A stretch of DNA of 36,678 bases, from positions 1 to 36,678 of the IMG/VR virus record IMGVR_UViG_3300009164_000174. One strand, given 5' to 3'. The stretch is from a virus. Below are positions 13,750 to 21,659 of this stretch, piece after piece. Within the stretch, counting starts at the first letter, position 1, and each line of letters begins with the position of its first letter. The notes beneath the pieces are model-generated. The model made no database searches, was not told the DNA's origin, and saw only the letters and a program-made list of their open reading frames with translations. The position numbers and the translations under genes are program-made.

Positions 13750-15501
13750 TTATTGTTTAACAGGATTCATTTTACCCATACCTTCTGTAACAGCAACAGT
13801 TAACTTTTCCATAAACGCAGGGTTTGTTAAAACACTTTCCATTTGTTTTGTATCAATATTTGGTGAAGTTGAATCCACTTTGACATTTAAATTAACATCC
13901 ATAGTTGAATTTGAACCTTGAGTTCCTGTTGAACCACCTGCACTACTTGTCGTATTATTAGTTGTTGGTATCTGAGTATTTGCCGGTGCACCACCCATAG
14001 CAACTTTACCCGCATTAATTAATGCAGATACTAATGGTATATCAGCACTTAACTTATTAGCTTGTTCTGTTACATTTGAAAAAGAATCTTTTAATTCTGT
14101 TTTAACAAATCCTGCAAAATCAAGAAAAGCGTCTGCTAATTTTCCGGCACCTGTCCCTGAATTACCATATTGTTGAAGTGCGCCCATTACAGTGTCTGAA
14201 AATTTATCAATTTCTTTAGCAATATTTTTTGAAGATAATCCTTCACTTGGAATATTACCTAACGCTTCACCCGTTTTTCTAGCGGTAGTCAATATTTGTC
14301 CACCGGTTTTACTACCGGCCAACCCTAAACCTGTTCTATCACCTAAACTATTAATTGCCGCAGTAACTCTATCAGTTGCTGTCAACTGTTGTTTTGCCAA
14401 CTCTTCCATTGTTGGAGGAGCGGTATTAGCCATTTTTTCAAGAGCGGCAACATCCTTTTCATTTAATTCAGATACATTCTTTTCTTGTTGTTTACCTTCT
14501 GCGTCAGTAAATTTAACCTTATATTCACCACCCGCACCCATTTCCGCCATATTGGCAATCATTTTCTTTTGGTCTTCAGGTACATTCGGGAATGAAATTT
14601 CTTTCATTTTCTTATCTAAATCCGCACTACCCAACGCCATTTTAGTAAGTTGGTCATAAGGAATATTCATAGCTTGAGAGATTTCTCTTAATTGACGTTT
14701 AGCTCCCGGCATAATTTCAAAATGTCCATCTTTTCCAAGTTGAACAAATTGTTGACTCATTTGTGCTATTTGATTTTGTAACTCAGCAGGGTCATTTTGT
14801 GCCAAGTCCATAAGTTTTAATGGGTCAAGTAAACTACTTTGAGACACCCCTAATCTTTGCATTGCCGCAGCAACTTCAATTGCCCCCTCAGGGTCAAACA
14901 CTTTTTCCGCAAACTGTAAAGTTTGAGACATATCAATTCTCAACGCAGTAGCTTGTGCAGCCATTTTAGCCAAACCTTCAACACCACCCGCAAAATTATA
15001 TTTGTTAAGTGCCTGCATATTATCTAAAACTTTACCTGAAACCGCTTGAGCGTTAACACCGGATTCTCTCGCAATATTAACAACCTTTAACATTTCTGCG
15101 GTAGCTTTTCCGGAAGAAATACCTACATCCGCCATACCACCAACAATTTTACTTGCCTCTTGACCGGTAACTTTCATTGTTGCGTATAAATCTTTAGTTG
15201 ATTCTTCGGTTAAAATAACATTTCTACCCAATTCTTTAGATGCCTCTTGTTGAATTTTAAGAACATCCTCAATATCTCCACCTAATTTTCTAACAGAAGT
15301 AACGGACTCAGACATACTCATACGTAATATGTCCGCCATAGCTTGACCTTGTCCAAACTGCTTAAGCATTTGACTCGCGGCATTGTCAAGTGTTACGACT
15401 ACTTCCGCAATCGCTTTAGGACTAAAATTAGAACCAATAGCATCTTCTAATCCTTTAGTCGCCTTACCTCCCGGTGTTTTTGACTCGTCTCCTGTTGCCA
15501 T
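13750..15501 (-). CDS. Tape measure protein (gp29-like)
   Basis: At 583 aa this matches the usual size of T4 gp29 (590 aa), the ruler that sets tail length and is packed inside the tube. The protein is Ala/Gln/Met/Lys-rich and predicted mostly helical over residues 20-480. Segments such as AAQATALRIDMSQTLQFAEK and EVAAAMQRLGVSQSSLLDP are typical of tape measures. A Thr/Ser/Gly/Asn-rich linker (about 505-535) leads to a short C-terminal region (MDVNLNVKVDSTSPNID), as in many phage rulers. Its position between tube/gp26-like genes and the baseplate genes is the standard one. No transmembrane helix is obvious. The identification is from composition, size and position, not from a strict motif. 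Confidence 0.7.
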   Translation of the reverse strand: MATGDESKTPGGKATKGLEDAIGSNFSPKAIAEVVVTLDNAASQMLKQFGQGQAMADILRMSMSESVTSVRKLGGDIEDVLKIQQEASKELGRNVILTEESTKDLYATMKVTGQEASKIVGGMADVGISSGKATAEMLKVVNIARESGVNAQAVSGKVLDNMQALNKYNFAGGVEGLAKMAAQATALRIDMSQTLQFAEKVFDPEGAIEVAAAMQRLGVSQSSLLDPLKLMDLAQNDPAELQNQIAQMSQQFVQLGKDGHFEIMPGAKRQLREISQAMNIPYDQLTKMALGSADLDKKMKEISFPNVPEDQKKMIANMAEMGAGGEYKVKFTDAEGKQQEKNVSELNEKDVAALEKMANTAPPTMEELAKQQLTATDRVTAAINSLGDRTGLGLAGSKTGGQILTTARKTGEALGNIPSEGLSSKNIAKEIDKFSDTVMGALQQYGNSGTGAGKLADAFLDFAGFVKTELKDSFSNVTEQANKLSADIPLVSALINAGKVAMGGAPANTQIPTTNNTTSSAGGSTGTQGSNSTMDVNLNVKVDSTSPNIDTKQMESVLTNPAFMEKLTVAVTEGMGKMNPVKQ

Positions 15502-15549: not shown

Positions 15550-15678
15550 CTAGTCTGGTGTGTTATTATCTATTAATTTATTTATAATGTATTTTCTAAC
15601 ATATGTCGGCATTGAATGAAAATCCGAATATGATATACGAAGTGATTGAGCTAAATACATATATTCCTCAATCATCAT
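15550..15678 (-). CDS. C-terminal extension of the gp26-like protein, or separate 42-aa protein
   Basis: A 42-aa reading frame opening with MMIEEYMYLAQSLRISYSD and containing SMPTYVRKYII. This looks like the C-terminal helical part of gp26/T4_baseplate-type proteins rather than a free peptide. The frame is open upstream without a stop through the end of the 251-aa gene, where it reads DFFDLSFSHRQMM if one T of the TTTTTT run is skipped. No Shine-Dalgarno sequence precedes the ATG at 15678. I think it is translated mainly as a +1 frameshift extension giving a protein of about 297 aa. It lies between tube and tape measure, where many tailed phages encode tail assembly chaperones with frameshifted long forms. 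Independent translation is the alternative. Confidence 0.6.
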   Translation of the reverse strand: MMIEEYMYLAQSLRISYSDFHSMPTYVRKYIINKLIDNNTPD

Positions 15679-15688
15679 TTGTCTATGA

Positions 15689-16444
15689 CTAAAAGAAAGG
15701 TCGAAAAAAGTCCACCCCAAAGGTAATCTCGAAAGACACCAATTCTCCTGAAGGGGCGATTACACTTCTTTTTAAGTCCAATGACGGCTCATTTTCTCTT
15801 AAAAAATTTCTTATGTATTTTGAATCCATAATTGGTAATGAATCTACAAATAAACCAATTTTTGCTCTATCTTGGTCTCCATCAACTTCAACAATATGTT
15901 TTTGTAATTTCCAAGTAATTCTTGGGGCTTGTAATCCCACAGGATATTGTTCCGCTTGTTTATCTAACTCAATAGTGTCGTAGAATGTTGTTGGCCTTAA
16001 TTTAACGGTTGCACCGGTTCTTGGTAATTTAGTTGTAAAAGTACCATCCTCATCCGGTTTAACTTGAGTTTTTTTAATGTTTAACTCATCTAAATTAATT
16101 TTACCAACAAATGGTTTGTCCGTTGCCGGGTCGGTTAAATTAACACTATATTCAGACCCAAAAGAAGTATTTCTTAAAAATATTAAAATGGCTTCAACAT
16201 CACCATCCAATAATTCTTCAGGTCGTAAATCGTGTTCATAAACTTTATTTCTTAATAATTTTAAGATTATGTTTTCACTACTACGTCCGGCACCAATTAA
16301 ATAATTTTCATCATTAGCCGTTAAATAACCAACTTTAACTGATTTCTTTTTTGATTTGTAAAATACACCACCTGTAGGTAATTGAACCACATCGTGTGGT
16401 AAACTGAAATTTTGTGTTGCAGCATCTAATAAATTTTGTTCCAT
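15689..16444 (-). CDS. gp26-like baseplate/tail assembly protein
   Basis: A 251-aa protein resembling the T4_baseplate (gp26-type) family: LPTGGVFYKSKKKSVKVGYLTANDENYL (quoted in part: LPTGGVFY near residue 22, LTANDENYL near 41), a GDVEAILIFLRNTSFG segment near 80, and RITWKLQKHI near 175. Such proteins help build the baseplate hub or chaperone tail assembly. The ATG is at 16444, and an octamer variant lies upstream. In-frame, the protein ends GVDFFRPFF and a TAG; a +1 shift in the T run at 15704-15709 continues into the 42-aa frame downstream with better family-like sequence. The gene lies between tube and tape measure, where tail chaperones with frameshifts are common. The exact T4 counterpart is uncertain. 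Confidence 0.62.
   Translation of the reverse strand: MEQNLLDAATQNFSLPHDVVQLPTGGVFYKSKKKSVKVGYLTANDENYLIGAGRSSENIILKLLRNKVYEHDLRPEELLDGDVEAILIFLRNTSFGSEYSVNLTDPATDKPFVGKINLDELNIKKTQVKPDEDGTFTTKLPRTGATVKLRPTTFYDTIELDKQAEQYPVGLQAPRITWKLQKHIVEVDGDQDRAKIGLFVDSLPIMDSKYIRNFLRENEPSLDLKRSVIAPSGELVSFEITFGVDFFRPFF
15704..15709 (-). promoter_or_regulatory. Candidate +1 frameshift site (TTTTTT run)
   Basis: On the minus strand the codons GAC TTT TTT CGA hold a six-T run five codons before the TAG of the gp26-like gene. Skipping one T moves into the frame of the 42-aa extension. A -1 shift instead meets TGA within about a dozen codons. It may be programmed, or it may reflect one extra T in the sequence. 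Confidence 0.5.
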
Positions 16445-16494: not shown

Positions 16495-16522
16495 AAAAAA
16501 CCCCACATAATTAAATGTAGGG
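16495..16522 (-). terminator. Intrinsic terminator after the tail tube gene
   Basis: An 8-bp stem with one G-T pair (ccccacat at 16501-16508, atgtaggg at 16515-16522) and a 6-nt loop is followed on the minus strand by a TTTTTT run (16500 to 16495). It lies 26 bases beyond the tube stop codon, so the abundant tube transcript can end here, ahead of the next unit. Confidence 0.75.
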
Positions 16523-16548
16523 TTGAATATATTATGAGTTTTATAATA

Positions 16549-17037
16549 TTAGTAAACTAATATACATCTATCCATACGAAGAGTTGTTGTAATACCCGCG
16601 ATACCATCATCTGAATAACCTAGTGAATCAAAATTAACATCACTTAAAAAAGTTCCTTCTAAAATCCATTTTTCCACAACAACACCTGTTGGGTCTAACA
16701 TCTCAAGGTCGATGTTCTTCTTGTATCCCGCTGCGTACCCCATACGTCCTGTTACAGACTCAGCACATAAACGTACCCACTCCATAAGAGCTTGTGATGC
16801 TGAAGGTCCAATAGGGTCTCTAAATTTAACTGAAATTGTTCCCCAATTAAAACGACCTGCAACATATGTTGAAGTGTTTAAGAAAGGTATCTCAACATCT
16901 TTAATAGTGATATGTGGTCTAGCAGCTGTTTCTACGAACCATTCGTTAATCCCTAAAGTAGATGGGAATCGTACAATAAACCTATTTTTTCTTTTTGGTT
17001 CATACGGTATGGGCATTTTCATTAATAAATCAGCCAT
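16549..17037 (-). CDS. gp19: Tail tube protein (gp19-like)
   Basis: A 162-aa protein matching T4 gp19 (163 aa), the subunit of the inner tube through which DNA passes. Family marks are the N-terminal PIPYEPKRKNRFIVRFP, the WFVETAARPHITIKDVEIPF segment, FNWGTISVKFRDPIGPS near residue 84, and a C-terminal region ending in RMDRCILVY. Its length, its position next to the sheath gene and its single-domain layout agree. Its own terminator follows, and an octamer TATTTATA lies 41 nt upstream with a long A-rich leader, as expected for an abundant structural protein expressed as its own unit. The start is the ATG at 17037; the next internal Met (residue 6) would remove only five residues. Confidence 0.9.
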   Translation of the reverse strand: MADLLMKMPIPYEPKRKNRFIVRFPSTLGINEWFVETAARPHITIKDVEIPFLNTSTYVAGRFNWGTISVKFRDPIGPSASQALMEWVRLCAESVTGRMGYAAGYKKNIDLEMLDPTGVVVEKWILEGTFLSDVNFDSLGYSDDGIAGITTTLRMDRCILVY

Positions 17038-17196: not shown

Positions 17197-18015
17197 TTAA
17201 TATTCTTTTTTAATTCCTCCTGCTGTTGAATAAGTTTTAATAATATTTTCTGGGTCTTGCTCAAAATGTTTTTTAACAACCTCCACATTTTTTAAATCGT
17301 CATCAGAAAAACCTATTTTTGGGACAAAATAATTATTTATTTTATTTTTTAAGAAAGCCTTTTTTTGTATATGTTGAGACATATCTTTAACATATTTAAC
17401 AAATTCTTTTAACGCTTTTATTTTACCTTCTTCCGGATTAGTTGCGGAACCTTCTCCATAACTTACAGGGTAAAACCTACATAAGTCCAAATATTCTCGA
17501 ATCATCTCTCTTTTAGAGACATTTTCTTCATCCGCTAAATCACGATATTTTTCTAAATTTCTAACTAATTCGTTTGAATCAATACCATTAATATTTGAAA
17601 CAATGTAATTGTAACAAGCCTCTTTTAGTACTGATGGTGTATGACCTCTTGCGGTCACTATTGAAAAAATTGACCCATTATTTATTGCCTCAACAAAATC
17701 TTCCCAAGCCGGTCCAGGTTTAGCAGTCATAGCATCAACTATAAATTGTTTATCTCCTTTAACTCCAAAATACATAAAAGGGGTTTCTGCAAATCCAACA
17801 ATTGTATGTCCGTCAAATTCAAAAGGTTCTTTACCAATTATTTCACGATAAGTTGCAAAATCTTCAGTAGACATCCCTATCTCATCACCATCTTCATCTT
17901 TAAGTAAAATTTTTGTTGGCATTGACACAATATTATCGTCCCAATCGAAAGCGTAATACTTTTCATCCGGAGCACCAAACTCATCAATTCCTTCTTTTAT
18001 TTTATTTTTTAACAT
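17197..18015 (-). CDS. HAD-superfamily hydrolase between sheath and tube genes
   Basis: A 272-aa protein with HAD phosphatase motifs in order: FDWDDN at residues 23-28 (motif I, nucleophile D24, acid D26), SIVTARG around 118-124 (motif II, T121), a Lys near 198-200 (possible motif III) and GFSDDD at 235-240 (motif IV acids D238/D239). The fold removes or transfers phosphate through an Asp-phosphate intermediate; the substrate cannot be read from the sequence. A long insertion after motif I (about 40-110) could be a cap domain. It stands between two major tail genes where T4 has none, so it looks like an inserted accessory gene, possibly for nucleotide or nucleic-acid end metabolism. No octamer lies upstream; it is probably read through from the sheath gene past the hairpin at 18035. 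Confidence 0.75.
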   Translation of the reverse strand: MLKNKIKEGIDEFGAPDEKYYAFDWDDNIVSMPTKILLKDEDGDEIGMSTEDFATYREIIGKEPFEFDGHTIVGFAETPFMYFGVKGDKQFIVDAMTAKPGPAWEDFVEAINNGSIFSIVTARGHTPSVLKEACYNYIVSNINGIDSNELVRNLEKYRDLADEENVSKREMIREYLDLCRFYPVSYGEGSATNPEEGKIKALKEFVKYVKDMSQHIQKKAFLKNKINNYFVPKIGFSDDDLKNVEVVKKHFEQDPENIIKTYSTAGGIKKEY

Positions 18016-18071: not shown

Positions 18072-21000
18072 TTATATATTCTCGAAAGAAGCTCCGGTTG
18101 GAGTAATATAGAATGTGATGTCTATAAATTCTAACGATTTGGTTGGTTTGATATAAATCTTACCTGTCATTTGATTTCTATCTAAATCAGCCACGTCTGA
18201 CGAAACTGTTACACGGAAATCATATAAACCTCTGTCTCTTCTGATTGCATCTAAGATAGGGTTAACAGCATCTAAGAAGTCTTGTCTTACTTTTTGGTCG
18301 TTTTGTTCAAACAATAATCTTACAGATACCGCTGAAATCAATTTACGAGCTTGAAGTAATAATCTTCTAACATTTATTCTATCAAGTGCTGATTGAGCAA
18401 TTTGTAGAGTTTTATTACCCCAAATTACGGTACCTACATCAGAGAAAGTAGCAATTGGATTGATACGACCTTGGTAAAGAGTATCTCTATCTTCTTGAGT
18501 AAGTTTCTTTCTCGCTTTGATTGCGTTTACAATACCTCTTGTGTAACCTGCCGCTGCGAACCAAGGGAACGCGATGTTATCGGTTAACGCTAAGTTTCTA
18601 ACAACCTCAGCCGTTGGTGGTAAATAGATTTGTGTATTATTAACACTATCTCTAGTTAATACCCAAGGGTAATAAGTTGCTGTATAGTTAGAGTCAATAC
18701 CACTTTCTTCTAAAATATTTACCGCCTCTTGTGGGTAAATTAATGCACTTGGGTCAGGACTTGGAATAAATAAATCACTATCAGCCGTTGTACAAATATA
18801 TAATGAGTCAGCTCTGTTAAACTCAATCATTTCAATCGCCTCCTCAACTAAATCAGAGTTATTTGAATAATCAATACCCGGAGTAACAAATATGTTGATA
18901 TTAACCGCCTCAGGATTTGAAAATGTTTGTTGTCCTAATAAGTATGCGTAGTAATCAGAATTACCATAATCAACACTATTGTTTCCAACGGTAATTTTCT
19001 TGAATGCTCCCCATCCTGTGGCCGTTGGATATTGAATATCCGGACAGTATCCGTTTAAGAAACCTTGTCTACCTAATTTAAATCTATCCGTATTACTTCT
19101 TGATTCTCTATAGATATCCCATCCGTCAAAACCACCTTGTACTAATAATGAGAATTTACGTGAGTATATTCTGTAGTAAGGACTTGATTCACTTGTTGGG
19201 TCAGATGTAAATGTTGTATCACCAACGTAATATGCCGGAGTTCCACTTGTAGTAAATGCGTTTGATATTGTAATACCACTTGCATTTTTATCCATATGGA
19301 AACCTTTTGTCAGTGTTAACCATTCCGCAGCATCACTATCAATACATATATTTAATGGTCTTTGTTTTCCTTTATATTGGAAGAAATCGACATCGTATCC
19401 TGCTCCGTTTCCTGTTGAAATACCTAAGTAAGTTCTACGAACATTATCTCCCGGACTTAGAGTAGCGTCATTACCACCTGAACTTAATCCAAATGGGGGG
19501 TCAAATACTACCTCACCTGGATAATCATATTTAGTTTTATATATTGGGAATGGAGACCTTGATGAACCATATTGTCTAAATTTAAATCCTTGGAATCCAC
19601 AAGGTAATGTGTCAATTGGTGCGTCTTCATTCATTTCTACCATAATGTATTTTGAATTCAACTCATACTCACCATCAGTTGTACCAATTTTCTTGGCCAC
19701 AAATGAATTATCATTTGGGTTCATAGTACAATTTGTAAATTTCTCAATAACTACCGGATTATTATCCGTATCAAAGAAGTCTCTAACCAAAATATCAAAT
19801 GTTAAATTACCAAAAGACATATTTGCAATAGATATTTTAACTTCAGTATTAGCAGCATTACCATCAGATATTGTTGCAAATCTAAATAAATTAAATACTT
19901 TGTTACCTCTTACTTCAGAAACAACCCACGGAGAAACCGGTGTTTGATATCTTTCTAAGTAGTAAGCGATTGAGGATGCGTTACCACTACCCGCCGCTCT
20001 TGGTAAATCTAATAAATTACAATTTAAACCTCTAATATAACCTTTATTATATCCATAATTCAATAATGCTTGGAATCTTTCTTCAACAAATACCGGAACT
20101 GTTGTTCTTGGTTTAGCAAAGTTTGAAGAACCAAATACTTTTGGTAAGTATTTAGAATCTGATTCACTAAATGATGTTTCGAAGAAGAATGTATTACCAT
20201 CATAATCAGTCACATTAAGACCAAACGTTGCAAATGGATTTTTATTAATATTTGAATAAGTTGATGCAGTACAATTAATAGATACATCAGTCGCTCCTGT
20301 AACTTCATAAACCGGTCCATCACTACCCGTACCATAAGTTGCAATACCTCTTGAACGAAGAGTTGCTATAACCATATCATCAAAATCAGTATACGAAACA
20401 CCTGAATATGTGTAAATTTTACCACTTACCGTACCACTATAACAAGTTGTTATTATTCCGGTATTATTTGAACCTGTGTTACCTGATGTTGCAGGATTAC
20501 AAGGATTATATATAGAAACATTTACTGTCCAATTTTTTGTTGTTCCACTATCTTGAGACACTAAAACATATTGTTTAGTTCCCGCTGAGAAATTTTGGGT
20601 TGTTCCTGAACTTTGTTGTGTAACACCACTAACTTTAACATTTGTAGTACAAGAACTGAACATAACAGTTAATGCTGTTAATCCTGATGTTGGTGTTCCT
20701 TGTGGTAATACAACACTAATTGTATTGTTATTATAATTTATACTACCAACAGTATTTGAAACTGTTGCAGAACTCATAGAAAATGAATAGAATGTTGCAC
20801 AATTTGATAATGACGTAGTGGCGGTTAAAGCACTAACAACATTATAGAATGAGAAACCACTATATGAACCACTATTATTATCAAATAAAGAATAATACCA
20901 AGGGTCGTTATTTGCGTCAGTATAATCTGCGTTAGTTGAACTTACACTATCAATACCATAGACATTATTTTCAGATGTATAAGCGCTTAAAGAGTTATAG

Positions 21001-21659
21001 TCAGAACCTGAAATAGTTCCATAGTAGTTAATCGATGTTGCTGAACTACTTGGTGTTGTTATAATGTCAAATAACTGTGATTGAATATTATCTAAAAGTC
21101 TTGATGTACTACCATTAAATGTTTCGTAAGTATCATTTATTTTATTTGAGATTAATGTTGGAACATTAAATACTTGAACCGTACCAATCCCACTATTACA
21201 TCCAGTAAAGGTGAATGTGAATGGAGTGATAGTATATCCTGTACATATGTTAGTACAAGTATTAATATCATATGTAAAACCTGAACATTGGAAACCTACT
21301 GTTGATTTATCTACGTTCGCGATTGTTCTAAAAGACCAAGATGGTCCCGCGTCATATCCTGACAATCCCAAAATTCTAGTTACAAACAACTGATTAGATT
21401 GTTGTAAATAAGCTTTTGCGATATACGAAGCTTCATACTTCGGTATTTGTGTATTAATAAATTTTTCAGGTGTTGTCCCTCCAAAGAAGTTAGTAAATTC
21501 ATCAAAATTTCGTATAAAAATAGGTTCGAAAGCTGGACCTTTAAGAGTCTCACCAACAATACCTAATGTGGTTACACCCACACTCTGTGCTACGAAACTT
21601 AAATCAACTTCGGAAGTATATACCCCAGGTGATACGAATACTTTGCTGTTTGTTGCCAT
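18072..21659 (-). CDS. gp18: Tail sheath protein (gp18-like) with large insert
   Basis: A 1195-aa contractile sheath protein. The N-terminus (SPGVYTSEVDLSFVAQSVGVT, then VGETLKGPAFEPIFIRNFDEF) and C-terminal half (NIFVTPGIDYSN, PWFAAAGYTRGIVNAIKAR, VIWGNKTLQ, INVRRLLLQARK) are typical of T4 gp18, which polymerises around the tube and contracts to drive injection. T4 gp18 has 659 aa; this one carries over 500 extra residues, much of it Ser/Thr/Asn-rich, between about 125 and 480. Within it, about 288-382 look like an Ig-like beta-sandwich (see findings). The insert is probably displayed on the outer surface. The leader has an octamer 30 nt upstream and a 12-nt sequence shared with the DNA polymerase leader. 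The start is the ATG at 21659, with no Shine-Dalgarno sequence. Confidence 0.9.
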   Translation of the reverse strand: MATNSKVFVSPGVYTSEVDLSFVAQSVGVTTLGIVGETLKGPAFEPIFIRNFDEFTNFFGGTTPEKFINTQIPKYEASYIAKAYLQQSNQLFVTRILGLSGYDAGPSWSFRTIANVDKSTVGFQCSGFTYDINTCTNICTGYTITPFTFTFTGCNSGIGTVQVFNVPTLISNKINDTYETFNGSTSRLLDNIQSQLFDIITTPSSSATSINYYGTISGSDYNSLSAYTSENNVYGIDSVSSTNADYTDANNDPWYYSLFDNNSGSYSGFSFYNVVSALTATTSLSNCATFYSFSMSSATVSNTVGSINYNNNTISVVLPQGTPTSGLTALTVMFSSCTTNVKVSGVTQQSSGTTQNFSAGTKQYVLVSQDSGTTKNWTVNVSIYNPCNPATSGNTGSNNTGIITTCYSGTVSGKIYTYSGVSYTDFDDMVIATLRSRGIATYGTGSDGPVYEVTGATDVSINCTASTYSNINKNPFATFGLNVTDYDGNTFFFETSFSESDSKYLPKVFGSSNFAKPRTTVPVFVEERFQALLNYGYNKGYIRGLNCNLLDLPRAAGSGNASSIAYYLERYQTPVSPWVVSEVRGNKVFNLFRFATISDGNAANTEVKISIANMSFGNLTFDILVRDFFDTDNNPVVIEKFTNCTMNPNDNSFVAKKIGTTDGEYELNSKYIMVEMNEDAPIDTLPCGFQGFKFRQYGSSRSPFPIYKTKYDYPGEVVFDPPFGLSSGGNDATLSPGDNVRRTYLGISTGNGAGYDVDFFQYKGKQRPLNICIDSDAAEWLTLTKGFHMDKNASGITISNAFTTSGTPAYYVGDTTFTSDPTSESSPYYRIYSRKFSLLVQGGFDGWDIYRESRSNTDRFKLGRQGFLNGYCPDIQYPTATGWGAFKKITVGNNSVDYGNSDYYAYLLGQQTFSNPEAVNINIFVTPGIDYSNNSDLVEEAIEMIEFNRADSLYICTTADSDLFIPSPDPSALIYPQEAVNILEESGIDSNYTATYYPWVLTRDSVNNTQIYLPPTAEVVRNLALTDNIAFPWFAAAGYTRGIVNAIKARKKLTQEDRDTLYQGRINPIATFSDVGTVIWGNKTLQIAQSALDRINVRRLLLQARKLISAVSVRLLFEQNDQKVRQDFLDAVNPILDAIRRDRGLYDFRVTVSSDVADLDRNQMTGKIYIKPTKSLEFIDITFYITPTGASFENI

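Follow-up and report, generated by a model that had tools for sequence, protein, structure and literature searches.

A gene of the T4 gp26/gp51 family (PF12322) in the uncultivated virus record IMGVR_UViG_3300009164_000174 is, judging from comparisons of sequence, very probably (with a probability of about 0.9) a tail assembly chaperone whose expression involves a programmed +1 ribosomal frameshift. The whole 36,678-nucleotide stretch, positions 1 to 36,678 of the record, is referred to here as the window. Alignments of relatives showed conservation of both reading frames, of the frame-0 stop, and of the slip codon, as well as selection on the downstream extension as a +1-frame protein; from these patterns we infer the slippage itself, its efficiency, a pause at the CGN codon, and the roles of the two products in binding.

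Reading frames at the locus

The short form, which would be the N form of the chaperone, is encoded in frame 0 on the minus strand (15689..16444, 251 aa, PF12322 and phrog_150) and ends in the window sequence with GVDFFRPFF followed by a TAG, its terminal codons being GAC TTT TTT CGA CCT TTC TTT TAG. A +1 shift at TTT_C would lead into ...GVDFFDLSFSHRQMMIEEYMYLAQ..., a frame that stays open to the TAG ending at 15550, and the predicted long form of 297 aa would comprise residues 1-247 of the short form and a 50-codon extension (15550..15702, minus strand, including its stop) that is a conserved open frame in relatives. The −1 frame at the gene end is closed within 4 codons of the frame-0 stop. 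The proposed slip, from a P-site UUU to UUC (UUU_C), lies at 15703..15706, the A-site codon CGA (Arg) at 15701..15703, and the run of six Ts at 15704..15709, and 5′ of the slip site is a conserved UUU GGG GUN (15713..15721) that contains a +1-frame UUG and is a possible stimulator, all on the minus strand. In the phage immuto, the predicted junction sequence is ...GVSFFGLTPEYR and the short form ends in ...SFLWPDAGV.

Under the proposed mechanism, ribosomes that remain in frame would read GAC UUU UUU CGA CCU UUC UUU UAG and release the 251-aa short form, whereas a fraction would pause with tRNA-Phe on the P-site UUU while the A site presents a CGN codon that is seldom used. The paused ribosome would move one base forward, re-pairing from UUU to UUC and bypassing the frame-0 stop, and would add 50 residues to give the 297-aa long form. 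On the model of gpG/gpGT of lambda, the short form would coat the tape measure protein and the extension of the long form would recruit tube subunits.

An earlier note on this DNA, made from the sequence alone, had proposed a +1 frameshift at the T run that yields a fusion of about 297 aa, and the relatives described below bore this out. One of its arguments, that the extension has no ribosome binding site of its own, fails, as a Shine-Dalgarno-like sequence is absent at 19 of 20 window ORF starts that were inspected; this proportion fits hosts that do not use Shine-Dalgarno sequences, such as Bacteroidota.

Conservation among relatives

A first scan retained the best 80 of 322 relatives, and in this best-scoring part a frame-0 stop was found in 80/80 and a +1 extension in 79, reaching 46-49 codons past the stop. 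Scans from three other members of the family (best 80 of at least 599, 20 of 20, and 1 of 1) and 15 phage records fetched from overlapping tblastn matches (9, 32, 35, and 13) were added. Among the 195 loci, which do not include L185 and L186 (partial, at contig ends), 194 were usable (L109 has no frame-0 stop in the available DNA), with 184 scored as +1, nine called −1, and one, L051, undecided because the locus is truncated by the contig end. A further profile scan (best 80 of 470) contributed 69 new distinct sequences, all of which were +1 (69/69). The total of distinct +1 sequences rose to 206 (114 of the window type and 92 others, nine of them ending before the +1 stop), a sample in which the contig sets are the best-scoring parts of larger sets and the loci are related, and hence not independent. 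The phage records with a +1 arrangement were immuto, SP-15, LIS04, GXN1, Mel-JY01, BRock, LuckySocke, and LR756508; those with a −1 arrangement were KVP40, Bellamy, GAP32, Vibrio 2.275, Atu_ph07, XacN1, and LR756511. No relative turned up when GTDB genome contigs were scanned once with the window protein.

These data bear on two explanations that would require no action by the ribosome. The first is that the T run contains a sequencing error or a private mutation and that the real gene has a single frame or is broken. A six-T homopolymer is a common type of error, but the same layout was found in all 206 distinct +1 sequences, 56 of which have no T run longer than four; the arrangement is also seen in phages that have been isolated, immuto and GXN1 among them; and the frame-0 stop changes its identity (TAA, TGA, or TAG) yet is present in 69/69 of the new distinct loci. 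Relatives with a single uninterrupted frame, which the earlier note had named as evidence against a programmed event, numbered 0/194 and 0/69. Since the frameshift is kept where the T run is 3 or 4 long and the same layout recurs in relatives, a sequencing error is refuted, and the explanation as a whole has a negligible chance of being correct.

The second explanation is transcriptional slippage, in which RNA polymerase would slip on the U run and produce mixed transcripts. The T6 or T7 found in 150/206 overlaps speaks in its favor, but the run present in the window is dispensable among relatives, the remaining 56/206 having at most T4, and 4/114 window-type loci with the variant TTC TTT C retain the stop, the site, and the extension. 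Transcriptional slippage would moreover give no role to the conserved CGN codon or to the phase of the UUU, and we regard it as highly improbable.

Codon usage at the slip site

The preferred reading, a +1 shift by the ribosome, makes the codons at the junction the object of interest. The consensus of the 114 distinct window-type loci is UUU GGG GUN GAN UUU UUU CGN CCU UUC, and across the family the slip sites appear from their sequences to be of three types, UUU_CGN, UUU_UGG, and UUU_CUU. A UUU followed by C or U was present inside the overlap in 137/137 distinct +1 loci, compared with 195/1,833 control windows. The P-site codon was TTT in 114/114 window-type loci, while other Phe codons in the same genes were TTT 923 times and TTC 264 times; the codon before it was TTT in 110 and TTC in 4 of these loci.

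The A-site codon was CGN in 114/114 distinct window-type loci, whereas CGN makes up 24% of the Arg codons in the flanking genes (132,335 codons with 4,879 Arg codons, AGA being the commonest). Within CGN, the A site was occupied by CGG in 57, CGC in 24, CGT in 23, and CGA in 10 loci; the corresponding counts in the flanking genes were 32, 10, 842, and 297. CGG or CGC thus stood at the A site in 81/114 loci, in contrast to 42 of the 4,879 flanking Arg codons (<1%), a bias that is confounded with the +1-frame residue and that may come in part from selection on that residue (Gly or Ala) rather than from slow decoding. Slow decoding is also qualified by the 23/114 window-type loci that carry CGT, the commonest CGN codon. 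When the sequences were grouped into 24 clusters (<65% identity), the A-site codon was CGG in 14, CGT in 6, CGC in 3, and CGA in 1. In the 20 ORFs of the window (10,995 codons), an in-frame TTT CGN occurs once, at the slip site, and CGG and CGC are absent.

Upstream of the slip site, GGG occupied the conserved codon three codons 5′ of the first TTT in 111/114 window-type loci (1,020 of 9,933 flanking Gly codons are GGG), and in TGG-type loci it was present in 46/86, compared with 106/1,146 Gly codons elsewhere in those genes. The conserved GGG may be a stimulator of frameshifting. We weighed the GGGG as what would presumably be a Shine-Dalgarno element like that of prfB; it ends 8 nt 5′ of the slip codon, in a window where all but one of the starts checked lack such an element. 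A candidate GCCCC..GGGGU stem upstream is weak (z of −2.5 to −3.1, in a place where the paired bases hardly vary), and a downstream stem of −3.1 kcal/mol gave a z of −11.9 against column shuffles, whose spread is almost nil.

Selection on the two frames and the position of the shift

Among 45 distinct close relatives, pN/pS of the extension in the +1 frame was 0.09, 0.26, and 0.30 in three identity bins, and in the other two frames it ranged from 0.73 to 5.7; in these close relatives, purifying selection acts on the extension in the +1 frame and in neither of the others. The boundary of this selection could be placed. On the 5′ side of the slip codon, residues of the +1 frame vary, one position being W in 74, L in 28, R in 4, S in 4, a stop in 3, and P in 1 of the 114 window-type loci. 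On the 3′ side, the window type has CCT for 109/110 Pro codons and TTC for 113/114 of the Phe codons that follow, and the TGG type has CCT in 86/86, compared with 406/916 Pro codons elsewhere in those genes (the TGG-type counts omit the 6 of the 92 non-window-type +1 loci without an F[FL][WY]P motif). Past the slip, frame-0 third positions are thus frozen where they are also second positions of the +1 frame, and the one free base, the third of CGN, specifies a +1 residue of G in 57, A in 24, V in 23, D in 9, and E in 1 locus. Both frames are constrained from within one codon after UUU_C, and this onset of double constraint locates the shift 5′ of the stop codon, at UUU_C or UUU_U.

The shift might instead be −2, or might take place at another codon (the stop codon, or CTT_T in sites of the form TTT CTT TGG). 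A −2 shift gives the same resulting frame; in U6 a tRNA on UUU can re-pair two bases back, and TTT CTT TGG offers two slip codons that lead to the same product. We nonetheless consider these options improbable, as in the TTC TTT CGN and TTC TTT TGG variants a −2 shift would land tRNA-Phe on UCU, and the double constraint begins before the stop codon.

Somewhat less improbable, albeit still unlikely, is that the extension is produced as a small protein of its own, from an internal start such as the UUG in UUUGGGG or by re-initiation past the stop. An ATG, GTG, or TTG lies in the +1 frame at most 12 codons from the stop in 115/137 distinct +1 loci; a +1-frame Leu UUG lies within the conserved UUUGGGG in most window-type loci, and upstream TTG codons are the only nearby candidates in 68/114 of them; KVP40 carries TAATG, and the loci L176 and L182 resemble re-initiation. 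On the other side, ATG occurs in just 41/137 loci at scattered positions, 27/206 have no start codon near the stop (3/114 of the window type and 24/92 of the others), and three window-type loci have a +1 stop between the UUG and the slip site. Between the UUG and the slip site the +1 residues show no conservation at the protein level, T4 gp51 has its extension fused to the N domain, and a separate start would leave the UUU (114/114) and the CGN (114/114) unexplained.

In seven of the nine loci called −1, the −1 frame overlaps the gene end by at least 6 codons. The extension of the other two, L176 and L182 (2501-3400 each), opens in −1 only 4 and 1 codons before the stop, with no U-rich slip site there and an ATG just past the stop. 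Although +1 phages surround these two loci in the tree, the +1 frame is no longer continuous in them, and their extension has a new N-terminal stretch. For them re-initiation is likelier, and they are possibly cases of a natural loss of recoding.

Family assignment and gene order

The 251-aa protein matched the Pfam family PF12322 (T4_baseplate, gp26/gp51) at 1.8e-9 and 38.1 bits, where the curated cut-off is 24.5, and matched phrog_150 at 6.8e-12, the fused form scoring 50.2 bits and the short form 46.4 bits against the latter. At an E of 1e-3, PF12322 matched 22/32 aligned members and phrog_150 matched 32/32. The fold predicted for the short form (pLDDT 85.8) had as its top structural matches among 989 chains the HK97 tail assembly chaperone 2ob9 and YqbN 3klu, each with a Z of 5.4, a modest value given that a Z under 8 may reflect a common arrangement. 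The match spans residues ~132-221, and below it were 5ir0 (unknown function, Z 4.3) and the remaining chains at ≤2.6. The likeness of the predicted fold to the HK97 chaperone is thus suggestive only. Foldseek alone found no match to the predicted short form in the PDB at E 0.001, and a PDB sequence search gave no convincing match (best E 0.46). Structural matches in BFVD were mainly baseplate hub or unnamed phage proteins. The extension is predicted to form three helices (pLDDT 70.5).

The upstream neighbor on the minus strand is the tail tube gene (16549..17037; phrog_4542 tail tube, 2.7e-25), and the downstream neighbor is a 583-aa ORF (13750..15501, minus strand) that is probably the tape measure gene, a label that rests on the annotation of the immuto and LIS04 records, the position being as in immuto; profile searches with this ORF, including Pfam and PHROG, gave no convincing family match. 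Of the 137 distinct +1 loci, 110 had the tube gene ≤700 nt upstream and 17 had it at a greater distance on that side, while four had no tube match and six too little DNA. An ORF of at least 150 aa lay within 400 nt downstream in 112/112 distinct +1 loci with enough DNA. The idea that the gene is a tail chaperone, which the earlier note had drawn from its place between tube and tape measure, is accordingly supported in relatives by PF12322, the tube gene upstream, and the large ORF downstream.

Between the tube and chaperone genes is a hairpin resembling an intrinsic terminator (16499..16524, minus strand), with a 10-pair stem and a T-rich tail; shuffles gave 0.7 such sites expected by chance. 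A hairpin with a T run was present upstream in 97/113 window-type relatives, compared with 2/114 in a within-gene control, and the SP-15 record has a terminator annotated at the same tube/chaperone position. The hairpin may set expression of the tube well above that of the chaperone.

Two other ORFs on the minus strand were noted in this region. The tail sheath ORF (18072-21659, 1,195 aa) is covered by Pfam sheath families over residues 899-1186 only, leaving some 900 N-terminal residues without a Pfam sheath match. Between the sheath and the tube is a 272-aa ORF (17197-18015) with no Pfam or PHROG match and one NCBIfam match far under the cut-off; it carries an FDWDDN stretch that we take to resemble a HAD-type motif.

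Relation to the T4 gene pair and to phages with a −1 frame

The profile of the +1 extensions matched the −1 set at 97.6%, and that of the −1 set matched the C-terminus of T4 gp51 at 92.1%, whereas the direct match of +1 extensions to the gp51 C-terminus was weak (36%, E 4e-4); the controls gave ≤0.3% when reversed and ≤0.6% for the gp26 C-terminus. In sequence, the extension thus resembles the C-terminus of T4 gp51, mainly via intermediates. T4 gp26 has nothing beyond the N domain (match 1-206 of 208), while gp51 carries ~48 residues after it (match 1-201 of 249). The T4 pair shares with the window gene the PF12322 domain, a short form that lacks the C-terminal extension, and a long form that has one of what is probably the same type; the difference is that T4 and the five relatives examined use two separate genes, in contrast to one gene with a +1 shift.

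The phages with a −1 arrangement likewise have a single PF12322 gene, a homologous extension, and a U6-type run, but the extension is in −1 and the run is read in phase as U_UUU_UUC in 6/7 (U_UUU_UUU in XacN1). The window type has the U6C string in the other phase and would shift by +1. The U6C string itself, in a codon phase different from that of the window type, was found in 6/7 of the −1 phages (the seven being L192-L194, L196-L198, and L084), five of them with U6CG.

In a tree made with a quick method and containing long branches, from which RCIP0002 was omitted, the ten gp26/gp51 rows from five phages formed one clade (support 98) beside KVP40 (87), as would be expected if duplication had replaced recoding. 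The +1 label takes three changes on this tree, which thus makes no case for a single +1 origin.

Discussion

A broader account of these observations, which we favor although with considerably less confidence than the frameshift itself, is that T4-type chaperones were anciently single recoded genes; that a +1 shift, at UUU_CGN, UUU_UGG, or UUU_CUU, is made by many uncultured phages with contractile tails; that the A-site codon of the window type, nearly banned elsewhere in the genome, serves as a built-in pause; that the direction of the shift has switched between +1 and −1 within the family; and that gp26 and gp51 arose from a duplication that replaced recoding.

Chaperone frameshifting as a kind and the two-gene version of T4 are already known. 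In the parts of the 2016 review available to us (PMC5009743), lambda and other phages make short and long chaperones by frameshifting, T4 is the exception, and a +1 shift is very likely in the chaperone of the archaeal myovirus HSTV-2. The accessible portion of PMC3004832 counts T4 gp26 and gp51 among the hub assembly chaperones. Vladimirov et al., as paraphrased in PMC10885494, describe T4-like phages with one short and one long gene, which would be gp26 and gp51, and as paraphrased in PMC12846349 they describe polyT −1 signals in T4-like chaperone genes. The earlier note had regarded a programmed event in this family as new. The novelty stands in part, as we found no report of a +1 shift in the PF12322 family in the texts and excerpts searched, although Vladimirov 2022 may already contain part of this, and the chaperone role was already known from the paraphrase in PMC10885494. 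What appears to be new is that this family has a +1 mode, how broadly that mode occurs, and the near-unused A-site codon.

Among other known systems, gpG/gpGT of lambda and gp17.5/17.5* of SPP1 resemble the window gene in making short and long chaperones from one gene, and those of lambda act on the tape measure protein, according to the available excerpts of PMC5009743 and PMC6316719; they differ in using a −1 shift (putative in SPP1, at UUUUUUC). The SPP1 gp17.1* and Listeria phage tsh/cps genes share with the event proposed here a +1 slippage on the P-site codon in phage structural genes, but as described in the same excerpts they slip on proline CCC, in genes for tube or capsid proteins, whereas the window gene encodes a predicted chaperone of a family with UUU_CGN, UUU_UGG, and UUU_CUU sites.

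These comparisons suggest that the two-gene state of T4 is derived within an otherwise recoding family. They also offer, among the relatives, a large natural variety of +1 sites whose A-site codon is near-unused, and a single family in which +1 and −1 recoding can be compared. For annotation, short genes that carry the label baseplate protein or baseplate hub subunit should be considered, together with the small ORFs that follow them as hypothetical proteins (SP15_046, immuto35A_232, and BRock gp135), for treatment as one recoded gene. Parts of the extension are annotated as separate hypothetical proteins in four of the surveyed loci (L083:4740-4859, L085:4848-4958, L191:3743-3925, and L189:3722-3958).
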